DNA from: Zanthoxylum bungeanum
Taxonomy: Eukaryota > Streptophyta > Magnoliopsida > Sapindales > Rutaceae
Assembly (NCBI GenBank): GCA_019454045.1
Contig: SKCR01021357.1
Location: forward strand, 124,001 to 188,000
Length of the DNA stretch: 64,000 bases
Reading direction: 5' to 3'
The notes under the pieces are model-generated. The model worked only from the letters and a program-made list of their open reading frames with translations. It did no database searches and was not told the origin of the DNA. The position numbers and the translations under genes were made by a program. Positions 1,851 to 60,000 of the stretch are shown here, piece by piece (position 1 is the first letter of the stretch; every line of letters begins with the position of its first letter).

Positions 1851-2496
1851 TTAAAGGTTAAGATCCAGATTTATTCGACGCTTCTTACCACGATCGTCAT
1901 CGGACCATTTTATCTTTGAAATGATAGGGTCAACTTGTGGTTCATAGGCTATGAGTTGTTTAATTAGATCCGGAGCAGTTCTGGCAGTAAAGAGGAGTTC
2001 TTTCATAGGTTTCGACACGAACCCATTTCTCCGAGCATCATCAAGAAACACACAAAGAAAATCATAAAATCCATCAACGTTGAGCAGTCCAAGCGGTTTC
2101 TGGTGTATGTTCAGGTTCGCCCAAGATAGTACTATAAATTTCCTCCAATGTGCCCAAGCCACCTGGTAAAGCAATAAAAGCATAGAACGGTTAATCATTT
2201 CTACCAGTCGTTCAGACATACCTGGCCGATCAGTTCCTCTCCGTTTGTGATCCAATAAGATTCGCCTCTGCCAAGGGTTTTGGGATGATTCCCAAAACGT
2301 GACTGCCTCCTCCTGTACGGCCTTTGAAACGATCCCCATAAGTCCAAGATTTCCTCCGCCATATATTAAGTGCATATTCCTTGCGGCTAAGACTCGACCC
2401 CGTTTCTTGCTGCCTCTATGTATTGTGGTTTAGTACCACAGTACTACCGCAAAACCACAGATGTTCTCAACTCGTATCTTCTGAAGTGGCTTCCAT
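1851..2496 (-). pseudogene. LOG: Captured LOG (cytokinin riboside 5'-monophosphate phosphoribohydrolase), decayed copy
   Basis: LOG enzymes release active cytokinin bases from their riboside monophosphates in one step. This copy keeps an ATG at 2496 in the context aaaaATGGAAGCC. The frame meets a stop about ten codons in and then shifts several times. The open part (2375-1851) reads YGGGNLGLMGIVSKAV, then a frame-shifted stretch, then MSERLVEM and VLSWANLNIHQKP, ending in NLDLNL. The PGGLGTLEE active-site motif exists only in another frame. Where alignable it is colinear and highly similar to the open copy at 29315-29968. It has no introns, so it derives from a spliced transcript. It is non-functional as a protein. 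Confidence 0.88.
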
Positions 2497-23146: not shown

Positions 23147-25375
23147 TCAGTTCGGTCTATCATAAATTATGAAATTCATTTGTAAATTAATACCTGCAAA
23201 TGCTTCCGAAGTCGATGGCGTTGGATACGTAGATGACGTTAGATTGTCACTTGCAAAACCTACAAATATTGACTGACCAATTATTCTTTGCAGGAACCGA
23301 ATTCTGTAACACAAAAAATTAATTTCATACAAATAAACAACTATATTCAATTATTCCCCTTGCAATTTTCTGAGTTCTTAATACCTGATGAACATTCTGG
23401 TGTGGATGGCATCCAATATGTTTGTGATGAGACACTAGTCCCACTGATACTACTTCCACCTTCATCATTAGCAGTAACAACTTTTATTGAACAATTCCTT
23501 TTGTTGTGCCCTGTTTGCTGACATTGGCTACATTTTCTAATTTTAACTACGTCATTCTTTGACCTTTTACCACATCCTTTTGTAATAATTACAGTAGGGT
23601 TTTTGACTTGTATGCCCGTATCACAACCCATAACATTACCAAGTATTCCATCTTCTTCAATACCAATAACTTGCTCAAATTTTCTTGTGAGCCGTTGAAT
23701 CTCAGATACAGCTTCGGTGTAAGCATGCTCATTTTTTGATGCAATAAAAAACAAATTATTACATGCTGCTGCCAAAGAACCAAATTTGGCAACCTCCATA
23801 AGGTGCTTGTCCATGTGAGGAGGTGCAATATCCACAATATAATTTGCTGACTTCTTTGTGGATTTCGTCCACCGCTCTATAATCAACGTAGGCGGTATAC
23901 GAACCATTTGCTCCAATTTCATAACATGAAAACTATGAGAACATGGAATACCTGAAGATTCTAGCATCTTACAAGAACACGCAATGTGCACTCTTTCAAC
24001 ATCAAAAACAACTCTCCATCTAAGGCTCGGGTGCTGGAACTTAGTAATTGTATAGATATTCAAACCGATGGACTTATCACAACTCACCATAATTAACGAT
24101 GACTCACAAGCTATCTCTGCGCGAACCCATTGAAATACATTCTTCGTATAAACTTCAGAAGAATGTTTTTCGATGCTATGTGGATGTGTCGTTAAAACTG
24201 GACTACTGTAGGTCGAATCAAACTCATCTTTAGATTCTTTATGTCGTATGCAGTACAATGCACGATATATTTGTCGAATAAAATCATACAATTTCAACTT
24301 CACCTTAAGGAACCGAGACAAGTATGAATTTAAACTCTCACACCTTTGCGTCGTTCGCATTCCACCAAAAAAAATTCCTTTCAGATAAGCCTCAGCCCAT
24401 TTGCCACGTTTCTGGTAAATCTTTTGAACCCATTCATTTTCTCTAACCCCATCTCAGAAACTAAAGCAGCCCATTGTCTTTCAAATTCATCTATGGAAAA
24501 CGGCTTCAACATGAATGAGCTAAATTTTTTGGTGAATTCTTCTTTTTTGATATTTGCTTGAGCATTTCTTTGAAGATGCCAACAACACAAACGATGTGAA
24601 CAGCCTCCCATAACTGTTTTTATTGCCTTTGACATTGCCTTGTCACCATCAGTTATGACTGACTTAGGTTGTTTATTATGCATTGCAGTCAGAAATGTCT
24701 GTAGCAGCCAAATATATGAGTCAACTGTTTCATCACTGAGTAAAGCAAAACCGAAAATAGTTGTTCTTCGATGGTGATTTACCCCAACCAACACAACTAA
24801 AGGTAGGTTGTATGCATTTTTCTTGTATGTCGCATCAAATGCCAAAACATCACCAAAACATTCATAATCATGTCGTGCAACAGTGTCAGTCCAAAACAAG
24901 TTACGTAATATATTATCCTCAGTCAACGTATATTCGAAATACACACCAAGATCAGAATCGGCTTTTGCAGACAAATATGCAATTGCGGCTTCAGAATCCG
25001 TCTCAGATAAATCTGCACGTCGACTAGCATCGAGTTTATTCTGCAAATCTTTACCCACGAACCCAACATTATGAAAACCTCCTACCTGGTCAGATTTAAA
25101 ATCCATGAATTGACAGACTTTAACCCCTACATGTTGCAGTGCCTGAGCATGTGCTAAATCAGCATTACTTACATGTCTGTGGGAACGAAGAAATTGTGTC
25201 TCATATGGGGATGCCAACATGTGACTGTGGTCATCAATGAATTTTACAACAACATATTTATGTCTGGAATGATTAAATTTGATATGGAGTTCCGCTGGAC
25301 AACCGTTACGAGTAATGCCCTTTGGTTCCCTCACTCGATTAGTTCGCTCCAAATATTTTTTTCGACCTATAACCC
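23147..25375 (-). pseudogene. FAR1-related MULE transposase, main part
   Basis: Minus-strand frames 25400-24381 and 24360-23347 follow each other with one single-base frame change near 24450. Order: end of the FAR1 DNA-binding domain (ERTNRVREPKGITRNGC); MULE transposase core with FDATYKKNAYNLPLVV and ITDGDKAM, two of the expected acidic catalytic residues, and RLCCWHLQRN; a SWIM zinc finger CSCKMLESSGIPCSH (about 23985-23930); and a C-terminal knuckle CSQCQQTGHNKRNC (about 23545-23500). Two or three short 3' exons probably follow, as a splice donor is seen at CATCAG|GTATTAAG. Copy B cuts the gene inside the FAR1 domain at 25375/25376. It is close to the FHY3/FAR1 and Jittery type. Confidence 0.9.
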
Positions 25376-27396
25376 TGATGAGGCGGAAAAGATAAATCAA
25401 ATTTACCGCCCCTTTTCTTGAATATTTTGTTTAGTTCTAATGCTTTGTTTAGTTTCTCGGGTTTGATGAACGTTTTGATGTGTTTTGGTTTTTTTGCAAA
25501 AAATATATTGGGACATAATGAAATCATTTAGGACGAAATGTGGGTCAAATAAGGGCAAAAATTGGACTTGACATATTAATTTGGAGATTGGAAACTTGAA
25601 AGGGCGTTTCAACGAAGTGCAGTTTTGGAAATTCCAGTTTTGCGCATCTGTCGTATTTTGGGCATAACTCTTTACTCCGATATCGGATTGAGCTTATTCA
25701 AGTTCAAGATTCAAGAAGACTCACATATCTACAACTTTGAAAGACAAAATAATTTCGAATTCTGAAGATTTCATGCCCGAAATTGATGAACCATCTAGAA
25801 GTTGTTGTGTGTAATTATTAAAGTCATTTTCAAAGCCAAATAAATTAATAAATAAATAATAAAAATTATCAAATCATCACCAAACATGATAAGAGATTAG
25901 TGGAGCAATTAATAATGGATTTGGTGGAGTAATTAGTGAGCAATTAATAATGATTTGGTGGATGATTTGATGGAGGCAAAAGTTTGCCTATAATACCAAG
26001 CCATTTCATTTTTAAAATTCATACTTTCTTCTAAGGAATTCCTTAAGAATACTAAGAAAATTGTATCTTGTTTGTTTATTTACAGCTTTTAGTAATTAAT
26101 TTCCGCTTTCGCACATTCTTTTCTTTACTTTTCAGTTTTTACTTTCCGCAATTTACTTTTACGCACGTACATTACTTTACTTTCTTACTTTTTACAGTTT
26201 TTACTATTCACCATGAGGAAGTAACTTCCCCAGTTAGGGTGAAAGGTAATTCTTTTACTGTTACTATTTAGATTAATCTCCCTTAAAAATAATATATTCA
26301 CTATTTAAAATATTGACTTAAAAATGATACCGCCAGATTGGTCGGTTGGTAATTCAATTTTAATCTTTTTAAACCTGACTATAAAGGATACCGCCAGATT
26401 GGTCGGTTGGTAATTAAATTTTGGTTCCGCCTTTATGGCTGGTTGGATTTAATTTGACTTAATCAGGTTACCGCCTATATGGCTGGTTGGTAAAAATATC
26501 ACAAGTATAATATATTTTATGGGAGATATCTAATTAGTAGTAGTAAAGTAATTCCTTTTACCTAGCATTTTATTTTACTTTTCAGTTTTTACTTTATGTC
26601 TTTTACTTTTCAGCATTTTTACTTTATGTCTTTTACTTTTAAGTTTTTACTAGCCCTAGTTATGTGTTAGTTATCTAGGGTTGTGATGACTTTTAATATC
26701 ACCGGTTTATAAGGGGTAGATTATAGTTTGGGTACTATAAAGATTTATTTATTGAGTCTTAATCTTAATGCTTTTTCATTAACTGGCCATTAATAAAATT
26801 GATCTGGTAAATCTAAAATGAACTAGACATAGGGATTTTAGGTTTCAGCCTTAGACTCAATAGCCCACGATCTTCCTTGATGATAGATAACCCTTAATAG
26901 ATTTCCTTACATGATAGGATATACACCTGTCGGGCGGGGGTAGCCTTTATTGGAACTTAATCTTAATGAATCCAGATAATTTGGTTGACATAGACATATG
27001 GTTCAATTAAGTTAAACTGGGTATTTGTGTCTGACCATCGACAGAGGCTTACACATAATTTAGTGCTCCAGGTTAATAAATCAATATTAACCAACTTTAA
27101 GATAACCACTTCATCTTTAAAATGATATTAAAATGAATCACAACCCTAGATCTTTGTGTCTTTTGTTATTTTCCTTAGTATTTTCTTTTGTCTTTTTATT
27201 TATTTATTTATTGTGCAAAACCACATTCAACCAATCAAACAATCATTCTCTTCTCCATTTAATTAGATATTTGTAAATAAATAGATTCAATAATTAATAA
27301 CAACAGTAGGAATTAAGTCCTCGTGGGATCGATATTTTTATACTACTCTTGAACGATACGTGCGCTTGTGTTATACGTGTGTGTTTACGCTGGTCA
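25376..27396 (+). repeat. 5' LTR of copy B, 2021 bp
   Basis: It begins TGATGAGGCGG and ends ACGCTGGTCA. Compared with the 3' LTR it has an extra 16-20 bp near 25432-25450, and a mutated TATA box near 25989 (TATAATACC against TATAAATACC). The CCGCC repeat array is at 26325-26500. Confidence 0.92.
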
Positions 27397-27402
27397 AGTT
27401 TT

Positions 27403-27420
27403 TGGCGCCGTTGCCGGGGA
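27403..27420 (+). promoter_or_regulatory. Primer binding site of copy B (tRNA-Asp type)
   Basis: It reads TGGCGCCGTTGCCGGGGA, six bases after the LTR end, and is identical to the site in copy A. Confidence 0.93.
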
Positions 27421-27527
27421 CTTATTTTTCTTGAGTTTATTAATTTGAAGCTATCTAATTTACTTGTATCTAATTTTCTTTATTTTTATCTGTAATTTTT
27501 ATTTCTTTCTTTTCAGGTGATTAAAAA

Positions 27528-28740
27528 ATGGAACACTACTGGGAGATTGAAAGATCACGAGCTTTACTAGAAGATACACCCCAAATCTGGGAGCAACAGT
27601 CCGGTTTTCTGAGGCCTGTTGTCCAGCCCAACAATTATCACTGGATGCCAGAACCAAGCAATACTACATTTGCTCAACAGAACGAGATGGGGAGATGTAT
27701 GATATGTGATGGTAACCACCCGAGCGATCAATGTATATACCGTTCAGGGTGGCAGAGCTATCAAGATCCTTCATGGTATGACGAGCCATCACATTTCACA
27801 GAACCACATTTTTCATCTTATCCACCATCTACCTATGATTTCCATCAACAATCAGAACCATCAGAGGAAAATCAGTTGATTCACATGCTCAAAGATTGGC
27901 TCGAAGAACGGGAAGCTCAATTAGATGCACAAATTCAGAGACAATCAGAAATCCTTCAGAGATGACAGATCAATGAGACAATTAACAGAAAACCAGAACA
28001 TCATACCTCAAGAAGAATTATCAAATGAAACTGACAAAGCCTTCGAGTACCCAGAGATCCACAATGACACCTTAACAGAGGAGGAGGCTGAGCAGTATCA
28101 ACAACCAGAGGTATCAGTTCAGGAGCCCGAACTGGCAATTCTCGATTTGATTTTTATTATTCTGACTCTGACGAGGATGAAGCTGATCTGTTTGTACCAA
28201 CTGCATCAACACTTGAGAATGGAATTCTGTATCCTCAAAATGAAGATCTTGGAGACTATTTTGTAATTATGTTTGAAGAAGATCTACCTGAGCCAATCAT
28301 TTCACCCAGATCAGAGATGAAGACCTAAAATCTGACATTTCTTCACATCCTCAGGTTGATAATTTTGCAGCATGCATTTCTCAGATGACAGATGAAGAGC
28401 TGAATGCAGAATTTACAAATCATCTGTGAAGAAAAGGTGGAACAAGAAGCAAAGCAAATGGAGGAGCAAATTTTTGACCTTAATAAATCCAGAGCATTCA
28501 GGAGAAACATCGCTGTTTTGGGGAAGTACAATCAAAGATATCACCCAGAAGCTTGACAGAATGGAACTTCCATTCCAGTCAGCACCATACAAGACCTCCT
28601 GATTTATTTCTTTCTTTGCAGGAACCACTGGAACAACAAGGAGCAAAAAGGTGGCGCGAGCACTGAATGGGAACAAAACTCTTTTTGCCACCTTACCGTT
28701 GGAAGAGACCCTTCAAAAGCAACGCTCACGGGGTGGTTTT
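27528..28740 (+). pseudogene. Gag-remnant ORF of copy B, frame-shifted
   Basis: It is colinear with the open 418-aa ORF of copy A. The first frame (27528-27965) starts MEHYWEIERSRALLED and keeps the knuckle CMICDGNHPSDQC. The frame changes near 27960 after ILQR, runs on in a second frame to about 28266, and breaks again several times before the basic C-terminus near 28700. It therefore cannot give the full protein. Its decay contrasts with the open LOG frame downstream. Confidence 0.85.
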
Positions 28741-29314
28741 GTTTCGGATCTATCTTCTAACGACAAACGACATTGAACCTCCTTAACAGATGAATTGCAA
28801 TCACGTCTGGCTGAAGACGAAAAATTTAGCGCTAGCAGGGAGGCAACCCATGCAATTTGTTGTAATTTCTGTTTTATATTTTGTGTATACATGTTTTGTA
28901 GAATTTTTTTTAATTTTGTGTGTTATTTTTGTAGGGAAAGCACAAACAGAGCATTTTTAGACAGAAGGAATGGTGTTTGGCAAAATGTGCAAGCTAATTC
29001 ATTAGCGATGCTGAATAAGGAATGGATTCTTGAGACGCATCCTAATGGATTTATATACCAAACGAGTGGCGTATTGCGTACACAAGTCCGTTGTCTTAAT
29101 TATTGCTTTGATTTGCTTTTCTATTGTATTATCTTTATTTTCGTAGACAGGATCCAGACTTTTTGACCTTTCACGATTTCTTTTGTTGTTTAGCTAACAA
29201 TCGTCATCTGGAAGATATTAGTGCTATTATTACTCACCCTTTTTCAGGTACTATAAATTCAGCCTGTCATTACACTTTTGAAGGCATCCTGATTTGAAAA
29301 GAAATACATAAAAA
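28741..29314 (+). other. Conserved spacer between gag remnant and LOG, copy B
   Basis: It starts with the junction block containing GCTAGCAGGGAGGCAACCCA at 28831-28850, which in Athila-type elements separates gag-pol from a 3' ORF. Several T-rich runs ending in TTTGTAG or TTTTCAG (for example near 28935, 29145 and 29247) could be splice acceptors. A short open stretch (28795-29166) shows no known domain. Confidence 0.55.
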
Positions 29315-29968
29315 ATAGAAGCCACTTCAAGAAGACGAGTTGAAAACATCTGTGTGTTTTGCGGTACTAGTATTGGTACTAAGCCACAATACGTAGAGGC
29401 AGCACAGGAATTGGGTCGAGTCTTAGCTGCAAGAAATATACACTTAGTATATGGCGGAGGCAATCTTGGACTTATGGGGATCGTTTCAAAAGCTGTACAG
29501 GAAAGAGGCAGTCACGTTTTGGGAATCATCCCAAAACCCTTGCCAGAGGCAAATCTTATTGGATCATCAAACGGAGAAGAGCTAATCGTGCCAGGTATGT
29601 CGGAACGATTGGTAGAAATGATTAACCGTGCTGATGCTTTTATTGCTTTGCCAGGTGGCTTGGGTACATTGGAGGAAATTTTTATTGTGCTATCTTGGGC
29701 GAACTTGAACATACACCAGAAACCAATTGGGCTATTTAACGTTGATGGTTTTTATGATTTTCTTTGTGTGTTTCTTGATGATGCCCGAAGAAATGGGTTC
29801 GTGTCAAAACCTTTGAAAGAACTCCTATTTATTGCCAGAACTGCTCCGGATCTAATAGACCAACTCTTAGCCTATGAACCACAAGTTGACCCTATCCTTT
29901 CAAAGATAAATTGGTCCGAGGACGATCGTGGTAAGAGGCGTCGGATTAATCTGGATCTTAACCTTTAA
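29315..29968 (+). CDS. LOG: Captured LOG (cytokinin-activating phosphoribohydrolase), open frame without ATG
   Basis: The frame is open for 217 codons, the usual LOG length. It reads ENICVFCGTSIGTKPQYVEA, LVYGGGNLGLMGIVSKAV, HVLGIIPKPL, MSERLVEMINRADAFIA and PGGLGTLEE (residues 113-121, at 29651-29677), then SWANLNIHQKPIGLFNVDG, ending RRRINLDLNL. The PGGxGTxxE motif, the YGGG nucleotide-binding loop and the Arg of MSERL are all present. Plant LOG genes have several introns; this copy has none, so it was captured from spliced RNA. Where copy A has the start ATGGAAGCC, this copy has ATAGAAGCC, and an in-frame TAA lies two codons upstream. Translation would need a non-AUG or internal start, or another fusion. 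It is near-intact but probably not translated as is. Confidence 0.88.
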   Translation: MEATSRRRVENICVFCGTSIGTKPQYVEAAQELGRVLAARNIHLVYGGGNLGLMGIVSKAVQERGSHVLGIIPKPLPEANLIGSSNGEELIVPGMSERLVEMINRADAFIALPGGLGTLEEIFIVLSWANLNIHQKPIGLFNVDGFYDFLCVFLDDARRNGFVSKPLKELLFIARTAPDLIDQLLAYEPQVDPILSKINWSEDDRGKRRRINLDLNL

Positions 29969-31257
29969 TTTCCTGTAGAATTTCAACTAACCAGGTATTA
30001 TCCTCTAAACTCTTCTTCTACCGTTTAAGACATTGGGGACAATGTCTCATTTAGGTTGGGGGAGGGAATTAGTTGATTAATATATTTTTTAGTTGTGTGT
30101 TGTTTTTATTTTTAGTCCAAAATTTTTCGAAAAATACAAAAAAAAATTGAAAATTGAAAAAATTACAAAATATTTTGTGTTTTTGTTTTGACTAAAAAGT
30201 TGAAATTGGTAAGAGAGTAAGGAGTTTCCACTCCTGAGACGTATCTCAAACCTATTTCGAAACAAGTTAATTTTTGTTTATTTCCTTTTGAATTATTTAA
30301 TTTGTGAATTCTCTATAATACTGATTAAAATGGATCTTCATATGCTCAGTTAGCAGGTATTATCAACATACATAGTAACATACGTACATGAGCTAAAATT
30401 GAAAAGTTTGTAATATTCAGTGCTCTAGTTTAATTGGAGGAAGCATCTCAAAAATCAATGGAGTAAAAAAAAACTTCTGAGATCCGAGTTATTAAGTCTG
30501 TAAGGGTGTTTTAACACCTAGTGCCCTAAAGCCAACTGATTTGGGATTCACTGGCCCAAAGCTCGCTACATTGATCAAGGATGTTGCAAAAATATATATA
30601 TATGAAGTCTGAGTAATTAAGTCCGTAGGGGTGTCTTACCACCTGGTGCCCTAAAGCCAACTGGTTTGGGAGCCACCGACCCAACACTCGCTACATAGAT
30701 GGAAGATATTGTATATAAATAAATAAAAAATCAAAAAAATCAAAGAAAAAATCAGAAAAATGAGAAAAATTATTCCATTGCTACAAAAAGGTGTGAAATC
30801 TGATAGAACTTTAGGACAAAAATAATACTCTCTTATCAACTGCACTTATGACTGTTGTGGGCAAAAATGAGTTGTTTAATATTTTGTTGCTGTGTATATG
30901 AAGAATGGTAAAAATAATCGGAGAATTTACTTATTCGGTAATTTAGAATGAAACAAAACAACTATTGACTTGGAGTAGAAGTTTCACCTGATTAGTCACT
31001 AACTTCTTTATTCTCTTTCTCTTGTCTTTTTGATTTTGTGTGCATTAGTTTTATTATCTTTTTACTTTTGTAAACCGTTTGTGGGTATCGTTGCTGTAAG
31101 CCCTCACGAGACTATAACTCGTCCACTAGGGACACCTAGGGGTTTAAAGGCTTGTTGCATATGCTAAATGCAACTGTGATCCCTACGAAAGTTTCTTAGT
31201 TTAATTTTAATTACTTCTTATTTTATTTTGTTGTTTTGCTCGAGGACTAGCAAAATG
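29969..31257 (+). other. 3' untranslated region of copy B
   Basis: It includes ACATTGGGGACAATGT (30029) followed by a TTTAGGTTGGGG stretch, and the duplicated GCCAACTGGTTTGGGA-type blocks at about 30480-30720, both shared with copy A. The remainder is AT-rich and non-coding. Confidence 0.75.
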
Positions 31258-31272
31258 TTAGGTTTGGGGGTG
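31258..31272 (+). promoter_or_regulatory. Polypurine tract of copy B
   Basis: TTAGGTTTGGGGGTG lies directly before the 3' LTR start TGATGAGCGG and is identical to the tract of copy A. Confidence 0.88.
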
Positions 31273-33285
31273 TGATGAGCGGAAAATATATCAATATTTA
31301 CCGCCCCTTTTACTTAATATTTTGTTTAGTTTCTCGGGTTTGATGAACGTTTTGATGTGTTTGGTTTATTTTGCAGATAAAAAATATTGGGACATAATGA
31401 AATCATTTAGGACGAAATGTGGGTCAAATAAGGGCAAAAATTGGACTTGACATATTAATTTTGGAGATTGGAAACTTGAAAGGGCGTTTTCAACGAAGTG
31501 CAGTTTTGGAAATTCCAGTTTTGCGCATCTGTCGTATTTTGGGCATAACGCTTTACTCCGATATCGGATTGATCTGATTCAAGTTTAAGATTAAAGAAGA
31601 CTCAAATATCTACAACTTTGAAAGACAAAATAATTTCGAATTCTGAAGATTTCATGCCCGAAATTGATGAACCATCTAGAAGTGTGTTTGTGTGTAATAT
31701 TAAAGTCATTTTCAATCATTTTCAAAGCCAAAAAAAATTAATAAATAATAAAAAAATATCAAATCATCACCAAACATGATAAGAGATTAGTGGAGCAATT
31801 AATAATGGATTTGGTGGAGTAATTAGTGGAGCAATTAATAATTGATTTGGTGGATGATTTGATGGAGGCAAAATTTTGCCTATAAATACCAAGCCATTTC
31901 ATTTGTAAAATTCATACTTTCTTCTAAGGAATTCCTTAAGAATACTAAGAAATTGTATCTTGTTTGTTTATTTACAGCTTTTAGTAATTAATTTCCGCTT
32001 TCGCACTTTATTTTCTTTACTTTTCAGTTTTACTTTCCGCAATTTACTTTACGCACAGTAATTTACTTTCTTACTTTTTACAGTTTTTACTATTCACCAT
32101 GAGGAAGTAACTTCCCCAGTTAGGGTGAAAGGTAATTCTTTTACTGTTACTATTTAGATTAATCTCTCTTAAAAATAATATATTCACTATTTAAAATATT
32201 GACTTAAAAAGGATACCGTCAGATTGGTCGGTTGGTAATTCAATTTTAATCTGGTTAAACCTGACTAATAAAGGATACCGCCAGATGGTCGGTTGGTAAT
32301 TAAATTTTGGTTCCGCCTTTATGGCTGGTTGGATTTAATTTGACATAATCAGGTTACCGCCTATATGGCTGGTTGGTAAAATAATCACAAGTTAATATAT
32401 TATTTTATGGGAGATATCTAAATTAGTAATAGTAAAAGTAATTCCTTTTACCTTAGTATTTTATTTTACTTTTCAGTTTTTACTTTATGTCTTTTACTTT
32501 TCAGCATTTTTACTTTATGTCTTTTACTTTTAAGTTTTTACTAACCCTAGTTATGTGTTATTATCTGGGGTTGTGATGACTTTTAATATCACCGTTTTAT
32601 AAGGGGTTAGATTATAGTTTGGGTACTATAAAGATTAATTTATTGAGTCTTAATCTTAATGCTTTTTCATTAACTGGCCATTAATAAAATTGATCTGATA
32701 AATCTAAAATGAACTAGACATAGGGATTTTAGGTTTCATCCTTAGACTCAATATCCCACGATCTTCCTTGAGGATAGATAACCCTTAATAGATTTCCTTA
32801 CATGATAGGAATATACCTGTCGGGCGGGGGTAGCCTTTATTGGAACTTAATCTTAATGAATCCAGATAATTTGGTTGACATAGACATATGCTTCAATTAA
32901 GTTAAACTGGGTATTTGTGTCTGACCATCGACAGAGGCTTACACATAATTTAGTGCTCCAGGTTAATAAATCAATATATTACCCAACTCTAAGATAACCA
33001 CTTCATCTTTAAAATGATATTAAAAGGAATCACAACCCTAGATCTTTGTGTCTTTTGTTATTTTCCTTAGTATTTTCTTTTGTCTTTTTATTTATTTATT
33101 TATTGTGCAAAACCACATTCAAACAATCAAACAATCATTCTCTTCTCCATTTAATTAGATATTGTAAATAAATAGATTCAATAATTAATAACAACAGTAG
33201 GAATTAAGTCCTCGTGGGATCGATATTTTTTATACTACTTGAACGATATGTGCGCTTGCGTTATACGTGTGTGTTTACTCCGTCA
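31273..33285 (+). repeat. 3' LTR of copy B, 2013 bp
   Basis: It begins TGATGAGCGG and ends TACTCCGTCA. The TATA box TATAAATA is at 31881-31888 and the CCGCC repeat array at 32205-32385. It is followed by the target repeat ATAACCC. Confidence 0.93.
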
Positions 33286-33591
33286 ATAACCCTGGAAAGA
33301 GCAAAAAAAAAACCCAAGAACGAAATACTATTTTGCCACTTTTAGTATCTCTACGAATCTCATCTTTCCTCGTGGAGAATCCAACAAACTGTGAATGCTT
33401 TTTATACCATGCCTCCGCATCTTCGACTGAATCAAATTCTGAACCAACAGTTATTGATGCAGTGAAGTCATATGTACATGTGTTCTTTGGAGGTTGAAGT
33501 GGCTGATATATCCCCAAAATATTGGCTGGAATCTTCTTCATTGAGGTCGAACCCCCAAGCTGCAATACTTCCAGTTGCTGATGTTGAAGTC
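33286..33591 (-). pseudogene. FAR1-related MULE transposase, N-terminal part
   Basis: On minus it carries the start of the FAR1 DNA-binding domain: GSEFDSVEDAEAWYKKHSQF, then VGFSTRKDEIRRDTKSGKIV. It continues into the copy B insertion and resumes at 25375 on the other side. A possible start, MTSTSATGSIAAWGFDLNEE, lies at 33591 in a different frame, which suggests one more frame break near 33470. Upstream (right), a pyrimidine tract ending in AG may be an intron acceptor. Confidence 0.82.
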
Positions 33592-35169: not shown

Positions 35170-37248
35170 TATAACCAATACATGCAACTTCACACCATCA
35201 ATATGCAATTTCACCATTAAGATGCAACTTTCAACCTTAAAAGATGCAACAAATATTTTAAACTTGAAAAACAAACAATTAAACTTGTGCTAGGGCGCAT
35301 AAATATGACCATTGAATATGCAACAACTACCATTAAACTTGCAACTTTCACCAATAAATATGCAATATTTCAAAGATGAAATTTTTAGCAATAAACATGC
35401 AAAATGAAACCATTGGACTTGAAATTTTAGCAATAACATGCAATTGTATCTGCCTTGAAAATCGCACTTGCAACAACGACCGTTGAATATGCAACCTATA
35501 CCATCATACATGCAACTTTTACCAATTAATATGCAATATTTCGAAGATAAAACCTTTAGCAATAAACATGCAAAATGAAACCGTTGGACTTGAAACTTTA
35601 GCAATAACATACAACTGCATCTCCCTCGAAAATCGCACCTGCAACTATTACCGTTGAATATGCAACCTCTAGCAATTAACGTGCAACTTTCACCAATAAA
35701 TATGCAATATTTCGAAGATGAAACCTTTAGCAATAAACATGCAAAATGAAACCGTTGGACTTGTAACTTTAGTAATAACATGCATCTACATTTGCCTCGA
35801 AAATCGCACATGCAACTATGACCGTTGAATATGCAACTTCCACCATTAAACTTGCAACTTCCACCATTAAACTTGCAATATTTCGAAGATGAAACCTTTA
35901 GCAATAAACATGCAAAATGAAACCGTTGGACTTGTAACTTTAGCAATAACATGCAACTACATCTGCCTCGAAAATCGCACATGCAACTATGACCGTTGAA
36001 TATGCAACTTCCACCATTAAAATTTCAACTTTCACCAAAATAAATATGTAATATTTCAAAGATGAAACCTTTAGCAATAAACATGCAAAATGAAACCGTT
36101 GGACTTGTAACTTTAGCAATAACATGCAACTACATCTGCCTCGAAAATCGCACCTGCAACTATGACCGTTGAATATGCAACTTCCACCATTAAACTTGCA
36201 ACTTTCACCAATAAATATGCAATATTTCGAAGATGAAACCTTTAGCAATAAACATGTAAAATGAAACCGTTGGACTTGTAACTTTAGCAATAACATGCAA
36301 CTACATCTGCCTCGAAAATCACACCTGCAACTATGACCGTTGAATATGCAACTTCCACCATTAAAATTTCAACTTTCACCAATAAATATGCAATATTTCG
36401 AAGATGAAACCTTTAGCAAAAACATGCAAAATGAAACCGTTGGACTTGTAACTTTAGTAATAACATGCATCTACATTTGCCTCGAAAATCGCACATGCAA
36501 CTATGACCGTTGAATATGCAACTTCCACCATTAAACTTGCAACTTTCACCAATAAATATGCAATATTTCGAAGATGAAACCTTTAGCAATAACATGCAAA
36601 ATGAAACCGTTGGACTTGTAACTTTAGCAATAACATGCAACTACATCTGCCTCGAAAATCGCACCTGCAACTATGACCGTTGAATATGCAACTTCCACCA
36701 TTAAAATTTCAACTTTCACCAATAAATATGCAATATTTCGAAGATGAAACCTTTAGCAATAAACATGCAAAATGAAACCGTTGGACTTGTAACTTTAGCA
36801 ATAACATGCAACTACATCTGCCTCGAAAATCGCACCTGCAACTATGACCGTTGAATATGCAACTTCCACCATTAAACTTGCAACTTTCACCAATAAATAT
36901 GCAATATTTCGAAGATGAAACCTTTAGCAATAAACATGCAAAATGAAACTGTTGGACTTGAAACTTTAGCAATAACATGCAACTGCATCTGCCTCGAAAA
37001 TCGCACCTGTAACTATGACCATTGAATATGCAACCTCTAGCATTAAACGTGCAACTTTCACCAATACATATGCAATAATTCAAAGATGAAACCTTTAGCA
37101 ATAAACATACAAAATAAACCGTTGGACTTGAAACTTTAGCAATAACATTCAACTGCATCTGCCTCGAAAATCGCACCTGTAACTATGACCATTGAATATG
37201 CAACCTCTAGCATTAAACGTGCAACTTTTACCAATAAATATGCAATAT
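35170..37248. repeat. 171-bp tandem satellite, about 12 copies
   Basis: The anchor ATCGCAC (or its one variant) occurs at 35461, 35632, 35803, 35974, 36147, 36318, 36488, 36658, 36829, 37000 and 37170, so the period is 170-173 bp, mostly 171. Monomers carry internal words ATGCAACTT, CCGTTGGACTTG and CTGCCTCGAAAATCG. Central copies are very similar and edge copies more diverged. Because 171 is divisible by three, minus-strand ORFs with a 57-residue repeat appear; they are a consequence of the period and not evidence of a gene. Confidence 0.95.
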
Positions 37249-50450: not shown

Positions 50451-51439
50451 TACAGCGCCTTTTAGTCCGTTATTATTGATTAGGTGTAATCTATTCATCT
50501 GTTCACGTATGTGTCATTTTTTTTACTATTTTTGGGGGTCACTGTTGTAACCCCGTTCGAGCACGTTTCAGAACGCCGTACGAACGTGAGCATTCTGTTT
50601 CATTTCTGTTCGAACGCGTTTACGAACGCTACTCGAACGCGAAACTTCTGTTTACTGTTCGAACGCGTTTACGAACGCTACTCGAACGTGCATGCATTTG
50701 TTTCATCAGGTCTGGTCCCGTTCGAACGCGTTATCAAATGCCACACGAATGAGAACCTTCTTGTGGGACACAGAAACTGGACGACGCATGTTGTCCCGGG
50801 CTCGCAGCCCGGTCGGGAGTATGGAGTAGCCACGGAGGACTAAACCGGAGAATAATGGAGTCGCCACCCGGTGTGAACCAGGAAAATGAGATTTAAGGCC
50901 GCACTCACCCCTCGCAAGGGAAGACCTCAAACCGTTGGGTTCGGAATGGTCCCTTACTTATGCCACTTGTAATGAAAGGATTTATGTAATAATTTAATCA
51001 GGCTTAAGTAGCACTTATTTCCAAGAGTATCATGCTTCTAAATTCACATGTACAAAATAAAACTTACACCTAAGTTTACATATATTTCACATCTAAGATT
51101 GAATGCTTGAAAGTACATCAAAAGAGCAACAAACATACAACTTCACTGGCATATTATATTCAAGAAAACACAAGCACACATACTAACCACACAAGCACAC
51201 ATGTGAGCACCTACTCAAGTGGTACGTGGAATTGTATCCCAAGTACAGACTGTACTACCGTCCATTCGGAATCGGCTACGGAATTTATGTCTGGGTTTCC
51301 ATCCGATATACCATAAGAAATAATACTCAAATGTTATCATGACATAGGTATATGAATTGTAATACATTAAACACATTGTATTCATACATGTGGGGATAGC
51401 TACTAGGAAAACTATGTATCAAATCTGATGAAAAGGACT

Positions 51440-51930
51440 CAGTTCAGTGGGTGCGCGTTCGCATAGCATTTGAAAACGCGTTCGAATGGTAAACAGAAGG
51501 TTCGCATTCGTATAGCGTTCGAGAACGCGTTCGAATGGAACCAAACCTGATGCATGATAAGACTAAGAAAGTGTGTGTGCGTTCGTGTAGCGTTCGAGAA
51601 CGCGCTCGAACGGTAAACAGAAGGTTCGCATTCGTATAGCGTTCAAGAACGCGTTCGAACGGAACCAGACCTGATGCATGATGAGAATAAGAAAGTGCGT
51701 GTGCGTTCGCGTAGCGTTTGAAAACGCGTTCGAACGGTAAAGAGAAGGTTCGCGTTCGTATAACATTCGAGAACGCGTTCGAACGGAACCAGACCTGATG
51801 CATGATGAGACTAAGAAAGTGCGTGTGCGTTCGCGTAGCGTTCGAGAACGCGTTCGAACGGTAAACAGATGGTTCGCGTTCGTGTAGCGTTCGAGAACGC
51901 GTTCGAACGGAACCAGACCTGATGCATGCA
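51440..51930. repeat. CpG-rich 124-bp tandem array with TTCGAACG palindromes
   Basis: The anchor CCTGATGCATG occurs at 51546, 51670, 51794 and 51918, each 124 bp apart. Every unit contains two copies of GCGTTCGAGAACGCGTTCGA or close variants, so GAACGCGTTC and CGTTCGAACG palindromes recur about every 60 bp. The second copy of the array is at 57730-58210 (anchors 57828, 57954, 58078 and 58202). Confidence 0.93.
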
Positions 51931-52010
51931 ACACAAAGAATAAAGACAACAATGTCAAGCTCAGTATGTCCGATTAAACGTATCTTGCATTCAACCAAAC
52001 ACACATCAAC

Positions 52011-52470
52011 CGGCGCGGCAAAGCATCGTGGTAAAGGGCTTTAACCCCTCCCCATAGGGGATCTTACATTGCACTTACTAAGCCAATGCGCTCGATTGAA
52101 TCATGCATACAAAGAATTAAAAACAATAATATCAGACTTAGTATGCCCGATTGAACGTATCTTGCATTCAACCGAACACACATCAACCGGCGCGGCAAAG
52201 CATCGTGGTAAAGGGCTTTAACCCCTCCCCATAGGGGATCTTTCATTGCACTTACTAAGCCCATACGCTCGATTGAATCATGCATACAAAGAATTAAAAG
52301 CAATAATATCAAACTTAGTATGCCCGATTGAACGTATCTTGCATTCAACCGAACACACATCAACCGGCGCGGCAAAACATCGTGGTAAAGGGCTTTAACC
52401 CCTCCCCATAGGGGATCTTTCATTCCACTTACTAAGCCCATGCACTTGATTGAATCATACATAAATAAGC
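52011..52470. repeat. 177-bp tandem array, three units
   Basis: The anchor CGGCGCGGCA occurs at 52011, 52188 and 52365, exactly 177 bp apart. Units include GGGCTTTAACCCCTCCCC and CATTCAACCGAACACACATC. The same array in the 5' LTR has anchors at 58295, 58472 and 58649, also exactly 177 bp apart. Confidence 0.92.
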
Positions 52471-52794
52471 AACATGCAGAATTCAAGTGACGAAAAATAA
52501 ATAAACCAAAGCAACACAAACAAAAGAAGGTGCCGTTTACTCAAGCGGTACGTGGAGTTGTATCCCGAGTACAGATCATACTATCGTCCATTCGGAATCG
52601 GCTATGAAATTATGTCCGGGTTTCCATCCGATATACCGCGAGAGTTGACACATCTCTCATTTTATTCCACAGCCACAACATACAACATCTCATAATTCAT
52701 GCATATTTATCTACTCAAGGGCCACAACATGCATTTCAATGACAATCATGCAAGCAATACTCAATAAATAATACAAATAAAAATACAACTTCCA

Positions 52795-53597
52795 TCTCTT
52801 CGTCTGGAAATTCAAACTTATACTGATCCCCCTCAACAGGTTGCAATGCCAGAAACTCTGCTACTGCTCGCCCTTTGATCACTTTGGAGGTGAGATACTC
52901 AATGTCAAACTCTGCTACTGCTCTGACTTCTTTTTTCTGTCTTCGGTACAGGCATTTCTGTGATTGCCTTGATCTTTTCAGAGTCTACCTCTATTCCGCC
53001 CATTCCCACTGTATGACCAAGCAATTTCCCTGATGTCACCCCAAACACACATTTCTTGGGATTAAGCCGCATGTTGTATCTGTCAACTCTCTGAAGGAAC
53101 CTTTCCAGTGCTTCAATATGCCCAACTCTTGTCTCTGATTTTACCATCATGTCATCCACATACACCTCAATCTCTTTATGCATCAAGTCGTGGAAAAGTG
53201 TAGTGGCCATCTGCTGATAAGTAGCCCCCGTATTCTTAAGCCCAAACGGCATAACCTTGTAACAATAAGTACCCCACTCAGTAACAAATGCAGTCTTATG
53301 TTTGTCTTTCTCAGCCATGAGAACCTGATTGTAACCTGAAAATCCATCTGCAAATGAATACATAGCAGATAAAGCCGCACTATCAACCAGAACATCTATA
53401 TGCGGCAGAGGAAAATCATCTTTCGGACAAGCCTTGTTGAGATCTCTGTAGTCTACACACATTCTGACCTTCCCATCTTTCTTCGGCACCGGTACTATAT
53501 TAGCCAACCACTCAGGATATTTTACTACTTCCAAGAACCCCACATCTATCTGTTTCTTAACTTCCTCTCTGTCTTTCTCAGCCCATTCTGGTCTCAT
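52795..53597 (-). pseudogene. Ogre/Tat reverse transcriptase and RNase H fragment
   Basis: RT (53597-52905) reads KKQIDVGFLEVVKYPEWLAN, IVPVPKKDGKVRMCVDYRDL, NKACPKDDFPLPHIDVLVD, the active site VYVDDMMVKS, and LNPKKCVFGVTSGKLLGHTV. After MPVPKTEK the frame is cut and joins an RNase H tail (52905-52795) with YLTSKVIKGRAVAEFLALQP and FEFPDEE, so the RT connection and most of RNase H are deleted. A 17-base direct repeat (52853-52869 and 52907-52923) lies at this junction. The sequence then runs straight into LTR. Confidence 0.92.
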
Positions 53598-55135
53598 CCG
53601 TCAGAGTTTCTGTTTTACTGGCCTCATATTCGGATAAGTTGGTATTGTGTGTTGGGCAATGTTTCTGTCTACCCCAGGCATGTCCTCATAGGACCAAGCA
53701 AACACTTTGGCAAATCTGACCAACACTTCTTCTAGTTTCTCCCTCTCTTCGGAGGTTACTTCACTTGCAATCAGAATTTCCTTGGGGTTCTCAAGTGTAC
53801 CCAAGTTAAATGCAATAGTTCTGGCTGAACTGATGTCAAATATGCTTGATTCGTGCAGTGTAAATGGAAATGACTCAGGCAAGTAAGCAAAAGAGATGTC
53901 TTTATTATTGGATAATGCGGAAGTACATTCAAACAAATCATGAAGGTAAATGTCTTCATCATCTATAGACACTTCTTCCTCTGCAATCAGGTCTTCCTCA
54001 GGCTTTTCGTCCTCTCCAGAGTCAGGCTCTCTAACTTCATCAGTTCTTCCTCCCAATTCTCTTCTTCTTTCTCCATAATTTCTTCAACTATCAGCTTCTT
54101 ACCCAACATATCCTGGAAGATCTCAAACCCAGGTACCACAATTCCATTAACTTCCACAGGTTCAGGCTCCCCTTGATATCCTGAAGCTTTCACAAAACAT
54201 TCCATCAGTTTTAGGCCCTTTTTCGTGACCTTTGGCTTTTCTTCATCAGACTTGTACCCCAAACCCTTCCGAGTAGTCTGTCCTCTGAAATCTGGTAATT
54301 TTGAACCCTTACCCGGCTCAATCTTCATTTTCTCCATAATCCTAGCCACCCTAGGATCCACCCACTCCTCAAAAGTAGCTGACACCTGAAACCTCGTGAA
54401 AGGTTGTATCTCCAAGGCAGCCACGGCATTATCTAACTCAGACCGGATGGTAACAACGTCTCCCTCATACGGGAACTTGATCATCTGATGCAAAGTGGAA
54501 GGCACGCCCCCAAGTTTGTGAAACCAAGGCCTTCCCAACAATAAGGCGAAAGTAGCCGGGATGTCTAGTACCGTGAACTCAACCTCATCTTCAATCGGTC
54601 ATACCTTGACCACAGCCACAAAGGTACCCTCAACTCCCCTTTTACTGTCATCATAAGCCTTAATAGTCATACTGGAGGGGTCCAAGTCTGTTGCTTTCAT
54701 ACCCAATCTCGCCAGAATTTTCAGCGGGCACACATTGATGGACGAACCGTCATCCACCATCACACATGAAGTTCTCTTGCCCCTCACCTCGGCCCTGATA
54801 AATAGAGGCCTGTTATGATTTCTCCCCTCTGCTGGGAGTTCATCCTCAGAAAAAGATATCTGCAAAGCTTCTTTCTGAACTGACCCAACAAACATTGCAG
54901 GGTTGGCGTCTTCCGGTACCACAATCTTGCTCAAGGCTTCAACCAAAGCCTGCCTATGCTCCCGAGATGCACATAACAGTTCCCAGATACTCACTTGTGC
55001 TCTAGTCTTCCTCAATTGCCTCAGCACTATATCCCCCTTAGTGTTTTCTGCAGTCTCAACCACTTCTCTACCATCTGTCAAAACTTCCTTACCCTTATCT
55101 GCCATATCATTGTAAAAACGACCACTGCGCGTCAT
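53598..55135 (-). pseudogene. Ogre/Tat protease region and connector to RT
   Basis: The piece 55135-54599 contains the aspartic protease start RTSCVMVDDGSSINVCPL, with DDG in place of the commoner D-T/S-G. The piece 54541-53987 continues with LGRPWFHKLGGVPSTLHQ, conserved at the end of the protease in this lineage, then a linker. The piece 54056-53601 leads to VDRNIAQHTIPTYPNMRPVK, which directly precedes RT. At least three frame breaks or stops separate the pieces. Confidence 0.85.
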
Positions 55136-57061: not shown

Positions 57062-60000
57062 GCGGAGGCATGCTGTCCCGGGCTCGCGGCCCGGTCGGGA
57101 GTACGGAGTAGCCACAGGGGACTAAACCGGAGAATAATGGAGTCGCCACCCGGTGTGAACCGGGAAAATGAGATTTAAGGCCGCACTCACCCCTCGCAAG
57201 GGAAGACCTCAAACCATTGGGTTCGGAATGGTCCCTTACTTATGTCACTTGTAATGAAAGGATTTATGTAATAATTTAATCAGGCTTAAGTAGCACTTAT
57301 TTCTAAGAGTATCATGCTTCTAAATTCACATGTACAAAATAAAAGTCACACCTAAGTTTACATATATTTCACATCTAAGATTGCATGCTTGAAAGTACAT
57401 CAAATGAGCGACAAACATACAACTTCACTGGCATATTATATTCAAGAAAACACAAGCACACATACTAACCACACAAGCACACATGTGAGCACCTTCTCAA
57501 GTGGTACGTGGAATTGTATCCCAAGTACAGACCGTACTACCGTCCATTCGGAATCGGCTACAGAATTTATGTCTGGGTTTCCATCCAATATACCACAAGA
57601 AATAATACTCAAATGTTATCATGACATAGGTATATGAATTGTAATACATTAAACACATTGTATTCATACATGTGGGGATAGCTACTAGGAAAACTATGTA
57701 TAAAATCTGATGAAAAAGACTCAGTTCAGTGGGTGCGCGTTCGCGTAGCGTTTGAAAATGCATTCGAACGGTAAATAGAAGGTTCGCGTTCGTATAGCGT
57801 TCGAGAACGCGTTCGAACGGAACCAGACCTGATGCATGATAAGACTAAGAAAGTGCGTGTGTGTTTGCGTAGCGTTCGATAAAACGCGTTCGAACGGTAA
57901 ACAGAAGGTTCGCGTTCGTATAGCGTTCGAGAACGCGTTCGAACGGAACCAGACCTGATGCATGATGAGACTAAGAAAGTACGTGTGCGTTCGCGTAGCG
58001 TTTGAAAATGCGTTCGAACGGTAAACAGAAGGTTTGCATTCGTATAGCGTTCGAGAACGCGTTCGAATTGAACCAGACCTGATGCATGATGAGACTAAGA
58101 AAGTGCGTGTACGTTCGCGTAGCGTTCGAGAACGCGTTCGAACGGTAAATAGAAGGTTCGCATTCGTGTAGCGTTCGAGAACGCGTTCGAACGGAACCAG
58201 ACCTGATGCATGCAACACAAAGAATAAAAACAACAATGTCAAGCTCAGTATGTCCGATTAACCGTATCTTGCATTCAACCGAACACAAATCAACCGGCGC
58301 GGCAAAGCATCGTGGTAAAGGGCTTTAACCCCTCCCCATAGGGGATCTTACATTGCACTTACTAAGCCCATGCACTCGATTTAATCATGCATACAAAGAA
58401 TTAAAAACAATAATATCAGACTTAGTATGCCTGATTGAATGTATCTTGCATTCAACCGAACACACATCAACCGGCGCGGCAAAGCATCGTGGTAAAGGGC
58501 TTTAACCCCTCCCCATAGGGGATCTTTCATTGCACTTACTAAGCCAATGCGCTCGATTGAATCATGCATACAAAGAATTAAAAGCAATAATATCAAACGT
58601 AGTATGCCCGATTGAACGTATCTTGCATTCAACCGAACACACATCAACCGGCGCGGCAAAACATCGTGGTAAAGGGCTTTAACCCCTCCCCATAGGGGAT
58701 CTTTCATTCCACTTACTAAGCCCATGCGCTCGCTTGAATCATACATAAATAAGCAACATGCAGAATTCAAGTGACGAAAAATAAATAAACCAAAGCAACA
58801 CAAAACAAAAGAGGGTGCCGTTTACTCAAGCGGTACGTGGAGTTGTATCCCGAGAACAGATCATACTACCGTCCATTCGGAATCGGCTATGAATTTATGT
58901 CCGGGTTTCCATCCGATATACCGCGAGAGTTGACACATCTCTCATTTTATTCCACAGCCACAACATACAACATCTCATAATTCATGCATATTTATCTACT
59001 CAAGGGCCACAACATGTATTTCAACATGACAATCATGCAAGCAATACTCAATAAATAATACAAATAAAAAAACAAAAAAATGAGTGTGAAAAAACCCTCA
59101 GGTCTAATCTTTTTGCCAACTTTCAGGCTTGCGTTTCACGGACGTCGGAAAGGGTACAGCTCCTCAACTTCTATGGTTCACTGGTTTAGCGTCCTAGCTT
59201 AATGTTTTGCTGTTTTGCTTGCTGTTCGAACTCCGTTCTGCTACTGTTTGGCCTCTGTTTTGCTGCTCTCTGTTCAGGTCACCTATTTTGACGTTTCCAC
59301 GGACTGTTCCGAGTTTTTTTGTGGGTTTTTAGTGTAGTCTTGTGTGATTATTTTAAGGATTATGAATGCAGTTTTTATGTTACTGTTTTGAGGATTTTTG
59401 TGGGTTTTTAGTGTAGTCTTGTGTGATTATTTTAAGGATTACGAATGCAGTTTTTATGATACTGTTTTGAGGATTTTTGTAGGTTGTTGTTTCGGTGATG
59501 TAGGGAGGCTTATGGGCTGTGTTTTTCGGTCAAGTAGGGGAAGGAGATGAAGAGAAATTTGTTATATTTTTTTGTGTAATATGCGTGAATGGAGAGCTTG
59601 GAGAGGGGGGTTGGAAATTCTTTGCTTCTTTTTTCTTGTGATGGGCGTAAATTAGGAGGGGTGAATGCCTTGGAGAGGTGTGGTTTATATAGAGAAAGGC
59701 TAGGGCTTCAACTTGTCTCACAAGGAAGGGATTTTGGCATTAAAAGGAGGATTTGATTTGGTATTCAACAAGGAAAGGATTAGATTGAGGGGGGACAAAT
59801 ATTGGCTAGATTAGAAATGCAAAATATTTAATTTGTTATGATTGATTTTAATTAGGCATGATATTTGTTAAGTTTGGTATATAATATATTTGATTTATCT
59901 TTATTAGGTATGATTATATTTTATGTTTATTTAATTGGTAAATGGTTTAATTATTTTATTTAATATTTAATTTAATTTCCCATGTGTTTTAAATGTGTTT

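Follow-up and report, generated by a model that had tools for sequence, protein, structure and literature searches.

Ty3/gypsy retrotransposons that carry a gene of the LONELY GUY (LOG) family are an already known kind, since the excerpted text of Alvarado-Marchena 2022 (PMC9289625) describes a YgdH domain, tied to LONELY GUY, in the Ty3/gypsy consensus sequences of Citrus sinensis and C. clementina, as well as in one of Populus trichocarpa under a looser filter, and cites a 2011 report (Steinbauerova). The same text describes Phalaenopsis Ty3/gypsy elements carrying an AlkB (2-ODD) RNA demethylase with in vitro data. Here, we analyze a window of 64,000 nucleotides (the whole stretch of DNA studied) from Zanthoxylum bungeanum, in which a retrotransposon with long terminal repeats (LTRs) carries a LOG-like frame at 29315-29968. 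A maturase-K fragment of this genome, probably a nuclear copy, comes closest to Zanthoxylum calcicola (86% over 62%), with other Rutaceae and Sapindales next among named records, which makes a host in Rutaceae near Zanthoxylum likely. Because YgdH/LOG domains have been published in Ty3/gypsy elements (PMC9289625, excerpted text), this cargo is not peculiar to the window element. The element resembles those of Citrus and Populus in combining a LOG-family domain with a plant Ty3/gypsy retrotransposon, with Rutaceae among the hosts, and differs from that account in the selection test, the active-site analysis, the neighbouring open reading frame (ORF) similar to viral nucleic-acid-binding proteins (NABP-like ORF), the tail motif, and the short derivative lacking pol. 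Like the Phalaenopsis elements, it is a plant LTR element that has retained a host-type enzyme, although the RNA demethylase comes with in vitro data, whereas the LOG-fold protein is known from sequence alone. Our literature search met in print neither the constraint on LOG nor the altered pocket, the tail motif, the module upstream of LOG, the adjoining NABP-like ORF or the short form of the element. No LOG-carrying element was found in the excerpted text of PMC10606437 or PMC13317346, and a term count in the main text of PMC7264820 gave none for YgdH, LONELY or cytokinin.

We consider it probable that a plant Ty3/gypsy lineage has kept an accessory gene under purifying selection, and that the window frame is one copy of this gene, now in decay. 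This explanation builds on the observed fold homology, copy number, contrast between shared and private variants, order of pol, NABP-like ORF and LOG, and remodelled pocket. The mechanism beyond these observations would be as follows: LOG would be expressed either through a conserved promoter-like module of its own or by way of a spliced RNA, and its basic tail would carry the protein into the nucleus, where the LxLxL end may recruit TOPLESS-type corepressors. In cells with a replicating element, the phosphoribohydrolase site would act on some purine monophosphate, be it still a cytokinin nucleotide or another one; the benefit of this activity would go to the element and not to the plant, and after the insertion of a copy, the gene would drift. 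Host genes captured by retrotransposons are often deemed passengers, and the thousands of LOG copies offer a built-in experiment, in which neutral private changes against constrained shared ones imply that the gene serves the replicating element. If this is true, the pairing of a hormone-enzyme fold, its pocket altered, with a nucleic-acid-binding ORF of viral type would mean that accessory genes are carried by plant LTR elements much as they are by viruses, and the LOG-like proteins of these transposable elements (TE-LOGs) offer a concrete enzyme for assay. More tentatively, it is possible that a widespread eudicot retrotransposon lineage carries a two-gene module for host manipulation, in which a nucleic-acid-binding protein of the carlavirus type is joined by a nuclear enzyme derived from LOG; the substrate of this enzyme would have shifted from cytokinin nucleotides (e.g., to a purine nucleotide related to signalling or silencing), and the module would be selected for element propagation.

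Abundance and Constraint of the LOG-Like Gene

The frame at 29315-29968 consists of 217 stop-free codons without introns, and matches PF03641 at 9.1e-36 (123 bits, cut-off 27) and TIGR00730 at 174 bits (cut-off 96); for the equivalog profile NF058542 it reaches 118 bits, under the cut-off of 300. Both the YGGG loop and the PGGLGTLEE motif noticed in an earlier, sequence-only reading are present. The same reading took the frame as full-length, and a correction concerns its start: codon 1 in 35 copies of the window's subfamily S1 (window included) is ATG in 31, ATA in three and unaligned in one, and the window copy has ATA, so that this copy may not yield a LOG protein.

A 42-nt LOG probe, with up to three mismatches tolerated, matched 14,888 places in the 3.96-Gb genome, while its reversed control matched 0, and these counts together with the PF03641 E-value exclude a chance likeness to LOG. 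Of 29 further copies selected for a similar 3' region, the probe would catch 20, so a rough guess for the genome is about 20,000 LOG copies; the assembly has 51,709 contigs, and haplotigs among them may raise this count. A second subfamily, S2 (about 76% protein identity), adds 830 places, and 19 S2 copies differ from the first probe by 9-13 mismatches. The gene thus occurs in thousands of copies, and is not limited to the window locus and a second LOG within the window (copy A), a restriction which the sequence-only reading had weighed as a sign of a passenger.

Between S1 and S2 (399 pairs: 21 gap-free S1 copies, among them that of the window and some containing stops, against 19 S2 copies selected because their frames are open), the median nonsynonymous divergence (dN) was 0.18, the synonymous divergence (dS) 1.34, and dN/dS 0.136. 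The pooled pN/pS on 100 of these pairs was 0.243 (codon bootstrap 0.186-0.309), and pooled ratios within groups were 0.33-0.38 for S1 and 0.48 for S2. In 27 copies (those with full-length LOG among 29 further loci selected by their 3' region, the partial L053 and L068 being dropped), private variants comprised 49 synonymous changes, 142 amino-acid changes and eight stops (ratio 0.973), and shared variants 73, 70 and four, respectively (ratio 0.322; Fisher p 1.7e-6); the Fisher tests here and below assume independent sites, and since the copies are related, their p values serve as guides. Only nine of the 27 have an open frame. As shared variants are poor in amino-acid changes and private ones near neutral, LOG seems to have been constrained during element replication and to drift after insertion. 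Both between subfamilies and for shared variants the ratio is well below 1, a value near which, combined with missing transcripts, had been named as another mark of a passenger.

The contrast between private and shared LOG variants recurs in S2 (0.815 vs. 0.407, p 0.028), in 36 copies from short elements like that of the window (0.901 vs. 0.229, p 1e-5; L014 and L032, with divergent LOG, left out), and in 23 copies from elements with the NABP-like ORF (0.896 vs. 0.331, p 1e-4). The NABP-like ORF itself gives 1.165 vs. 0.421 (24 partial rows, p 0.018), and the full ORF1 of the short elements 0.755 vs. 0.727 (p 0.91), being open in four of 29 copies (window included, L032 dropped). Judged by these ratios, it is LOG that is clearly constrained within the short element.

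Carriers of the Gene and the Window Element

The S2 stretch L094 carries, in the 5 kb upstream of LOG, matches to RVT_1 (9.4e-31), RNase H and the integrase core (3.5e-16), that is, the order of reverse transcriptase, RNase H and integrase of Ty3/gypsy elements, followed by a 183-aa ORF with Carla_C4 at 2e-5 (over cut-off) and Viral_NABP at 1.2e-4 (just under cut-off). The S1 loci L007 and L008 have the integrase-half end of pol upstream of the NABP-like ORF and LOG, 54-56% identical to L094. The gene order in the relatives is pol, NABP-like ORF, LOG, and the extra-3'-ORF position that had been assigned to LOG from the window agrees with its place 3' of pol in pol-bearing relatives. Elements of the Athila type have an extra sense ORF between pol and the 3' LTR, and a primer-binding site (PBS) of the tRNA-Asp type. 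The present elements share this layout, including the PBS, but have NABP-like and LOG-like ORFs in place of an env-like one, the likeness being one of layout.

The NABP-like ORF (L094:4110-4661 and L007:710-1186) is similar to the cysteine-rich nucleic-acid-binding proteins of carlaviruses. It has 383 relatives at E ≤0.001, with Xanthoceras, Populus, Rhamnella, Acer and Orobanche as named hosts among the 120 listed, and its largest cluster holds up to 566 member sequences; five relatives tested gave Carla_C4 over cut-off in all five and Viral_NABP in four.

A set of 30 loci selected by their 3' region comprises 21 with remnants of NABP-like coding sequence ahead of LOG, seven of the short type and two unclassed, while 30 loci selected by their 5' region comprise 29 of the short type and one with both types (window included in each set). 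An ORF1 probe typical of the short type, which may miss diverged short copies such as copy A, matched 219 places against 14,888 for LOG, and short elements were rejected as the main LOG carriers. ORF1 is intact at 419 aa in L011, L013 and L020, with a zinc-knuckle-like CX2CX3HX4C motif. The window had been read as holding a gag remnant 5' of LOG; ORF1 of L013 and L011 has no Pfam match over cut-off, so the gag label is one that we infer. Two short elements, L014 and L032, have an ORF1 start about 98% identical to that of the window and a LOG 76-79% identical over the compared part, and are probable chimeras with another LOG subfamily.

The features of the window element, and copy A, are as follows:

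25369..25375, no strand, 5' target repeat ATAACCC, read directly
25376..27396, + strand, 5' LTR, by BLASTN against the 3' LTR, last 8 bases by eye
27403..27420, + strand, PBS TGGCGCCGTTGCCGGGGA, read directly
27528..27965, + strand, ORF1, frame-shifted in the window copy, putatively gag-like
29029..29085, + strand, remnant of the carlavirus-NABP-like ORF (LETHPNGF...LRTQ), by tblastn of the L094 ORF against the window
29233..29263, + strand, module CTCACCCTTTTTCAGGTACTATAAATTCAGC, candidate TATA box or splice acceptor for LOG, conserved in LOG subfamilies
29315..29968, + strand, LOG-like ORF, 217 codons, start codon ATA, by translation and profile matches
29933..29965, + strand, C-terminal basic and LxLxL tail (KRRRINLDLNL), from the sequence
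31260..31272, + strand, G-rich polypurine-tract-like stretch directly before the 3' LTR, read directly
31273..33285, + strand, 3' LTR, by BLASTN, last 7 bases by eye
33286..33292, no strand, 3' target repeat ATAACCC, read directly
1851..2496, - strand, LOG of copy A, 90% identical, frame-shifted, a second LOG copy inside the window

All hallmarks of an LTR retrotransposon, namely LTRs, PBS, polypurine tract and target repeat, are present around the frame, in agreement with its earlier description as cargo of such an element. The LTR pair is 94.0% identical, with 51 mismatches and 71 gap positions in 2,045 columns of the BLASTN alignment (25376-27388 vs. 31273-33278, ends placed by eye at 27396 and 33285), and the PBS TGGCGCCGTTGCCGGGGA is one which we take to be of the tRNA-Asp type. 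The NABP-like remnant (E 0.029) is weak alone, yet its position is as expected, and no pol match was found in 27397-31272; by its sequence, the window element is a short derivative in which LOG was retained, whereas pol and almost the whole NABP-like ORF were lost.

Upstream of LOG, the 12-mer CTATAAATTCAG is exact in 5/7 S1 loci nearest by LOG, 22/27 chosen on the 5' region and 8/28 chosen on the 3' region (27 and 28 measured out of 29 tried each), and present with up to two mismatches in 7/7, 26/27 and 28/28 of the same sets. It is also exact in eight of nine S2 copies and present in L088, L014 and L032, whereas random 140-nt stretches of the window reach two mismatches in 4/300. A TATA-like box lies about 57-67 bases before the LOG start codon in the copies examined by reading; the module may be a TATA box, or the preceding TTTTCAG may be a splice acceptor.

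Active Site, Tail and Competing Explanations

The active-site residues of a Corynebacterium LOG served as reference (PMC4979012, excerpted text), whose numbering His97, Lys100 and Glu125 is used for the pocket, and in which Glu125 and Trp129 reach the pocket from the neighbouring molecule. The catalytic Arg and Glu (R98, E121) are each kept in 34/35 S1 and 19/19 S2 copies, as are the pocket Met (35/35, 18/19) and Trp (34/35, 18/19). The pocket His is kept in none, being Ser in 33/35 S1 and 16/19 S2 copies, and Leu replaces Lys, and Ile or Thr replaces Glu, in all 35 and all 19, while four host, two Arabidopsis and one bacterial LOG keep the full set. In a panel of 42 relatives (the window's own protein included, picked from the window and 120 listed of 7,787), the pocket His is kept in 11, Lys in four and Glu in four; the catalytic Glu is present in 42/42, and the catalytic Arg is kept in 34, the others having Gln (six), Cys (one) or Met (one). 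Gln occurs in relatives P0011, P0014, P0015, P0017, P0019 and P0026. From these residues, hydrolase chemistry appears plausible in the TE-LOGs of S1 and S2, whereas cytokinin specificity is doubtful because of the replaced prenyl-pocket His, Lys and Glu, and the Gln at the catalytic Arg in six relatives.

A strict L.L.L end is found in 30/42 relatives, with basic residues before it in most, and L-D-L-N-L is unchanged in 16/21 gap-free S1 copies; four host LOGs, whose last exons were read to the stop, end without LxLxL. LxLxL motifs of the EAR repressor type bind TOPLESS, and the TE-LOG tail is a candidate for this type.

Several points weigh against an accessory gene selected for the element. 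The pocket changes and the Gln at the catalytic Arg speak against a common cytokinin role, the tail of the modelled protein has a pLDDT <50, and nuclear import and corepressor binding of TE-LOG are readings of motifs. The contrast falls short of significance (1.643 vs. 0.602, p 0.17) in those 25 of the 36 short-type copies that were selected by the 5' region only, with 186 nt of LOG, and a count over the initial 438 nt of ORF1, taken in the shifted frame of the window, gives 0.858 vs. 0.393 (p 0.12), such that part of ORF1 may also be constrained; the contrast between LOG and ORF1 is drawn from different copy samples. In addition, dS values of about 1.3 approach saturation, the S2 copies were picked for open frames, and the shared variants of short elements could stem from pol-bearing masters.

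The sequence-only reading had supposed that LOG makes active cytokinin and could alter cell division near insertions; in the explanation built on it, a fully functional LOG would make ordinary active cytokinin, with the result that nearby cells divide and the element reaches dividing or germline cells. The LOG fold, the PGGxGTxxE motif, and the catalytic Arg and Glu nearly always kept in S1 and S2 agree with this explanation, but we regard it as rather unlikely, because the equivalents of His97, Lys100 and Glu125 are replaced in 35/35 S1 and 19/19 S2 copies, although the host, Arabidopsis and bacterial LOGs keep them, and because 6/42 relatives have Gln at the catalytic Arg. Another unlikely explanation sees in the protein a regulator derived from LOG and devoid of cytokinin chemistry, which would act as a nucleotide-binding or dominant-negative partner of host LOGs via the cross-dimer pocket. 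The pocket Glu125 and Trp129 come from the neighbouring molecule (PMC4979012, excerpted text), the TE-LOGs of this genome keep the Trp but lost the Glu, and the catalytic Arg is missing in 8/42 relatives, all of which accords with such a regulator, while the catalytic Glu in 42/42 relatives argues against it. That LOG is a passenger, captured once and copied along with the element, with apparent constraint derived from a few masters, is very improbable: 9/27 open copies are what decay after insertion predicts and private changes look neutral, yet shared variants and the S1-S2 comparison are constrained, and the full ORF1 of the short elements lacks the contrast.

Origin of the Gene and Surroundings of the Element

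With a canonical LOG peptide as query, TE copies took up all scored rows (150/150, at 56-61% identity), and host genes were therefore sought via a degenerate motif, which occurs at 17 places, four of which (L090-L093) were examined. TE-LOG shares the fold and the PGGxGTxEE motif with the canonical plant LOGs (At2g37210, At5g11950 and these host loci), whereas the four host loci have introns, an MH-RK-EE-E-W pocket signature, and C-termini without LxLxL. The earlier statement that plant LOGs have introns is true of all four, which are split into six or seven coding blocks. Its corollary, capture of the intronless TE frame from spliced mRNA, is one that we infer, no donor gene having been found.

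In a tree, whose bacterial row is long and whose root is not settled, 22 TE-type rows and six host rows (plant LOGs) lie on opposite sides of a branch with support 87/91. A bacterial origin was rejected as far as the unsettled root allows, as plant LOGs score higher by sequence. Scans of viral contigs, from which records near this genome may be missing, turned up no encoded relative. The Xanthoceras, Populus, Paulownia, Reevesia and Diplodiscus rows were classed as TE-type by similarity (plus the tail, except in Xanthoceras), not by element context. The rows from Xanthoceras are the first to branch and have all pocket residues, which suggests that pocket and tail changed within the TE-type clade.

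A MULE/FAR1-type frame (23347-25400, - strand; MULE 1.8e-28, FAR1 1.4e-6) adjoins the element, which may have inserted into it, and on the other side a frame at 33275-33565 (- strand) had no match in a Pfam search. At 35304-37248, a 171-bp unit is repeated in tandem 11.4 times, with 93% matches. A second direct repeat pair, at 50783-52739 and 57065-59024, lies about 6.28 kb apart with best blocks 96-98% alike, contains internal tandem units of 124 bp and 177 bp, encloses a pol match at 52932-53660, and is probably another LTR element.
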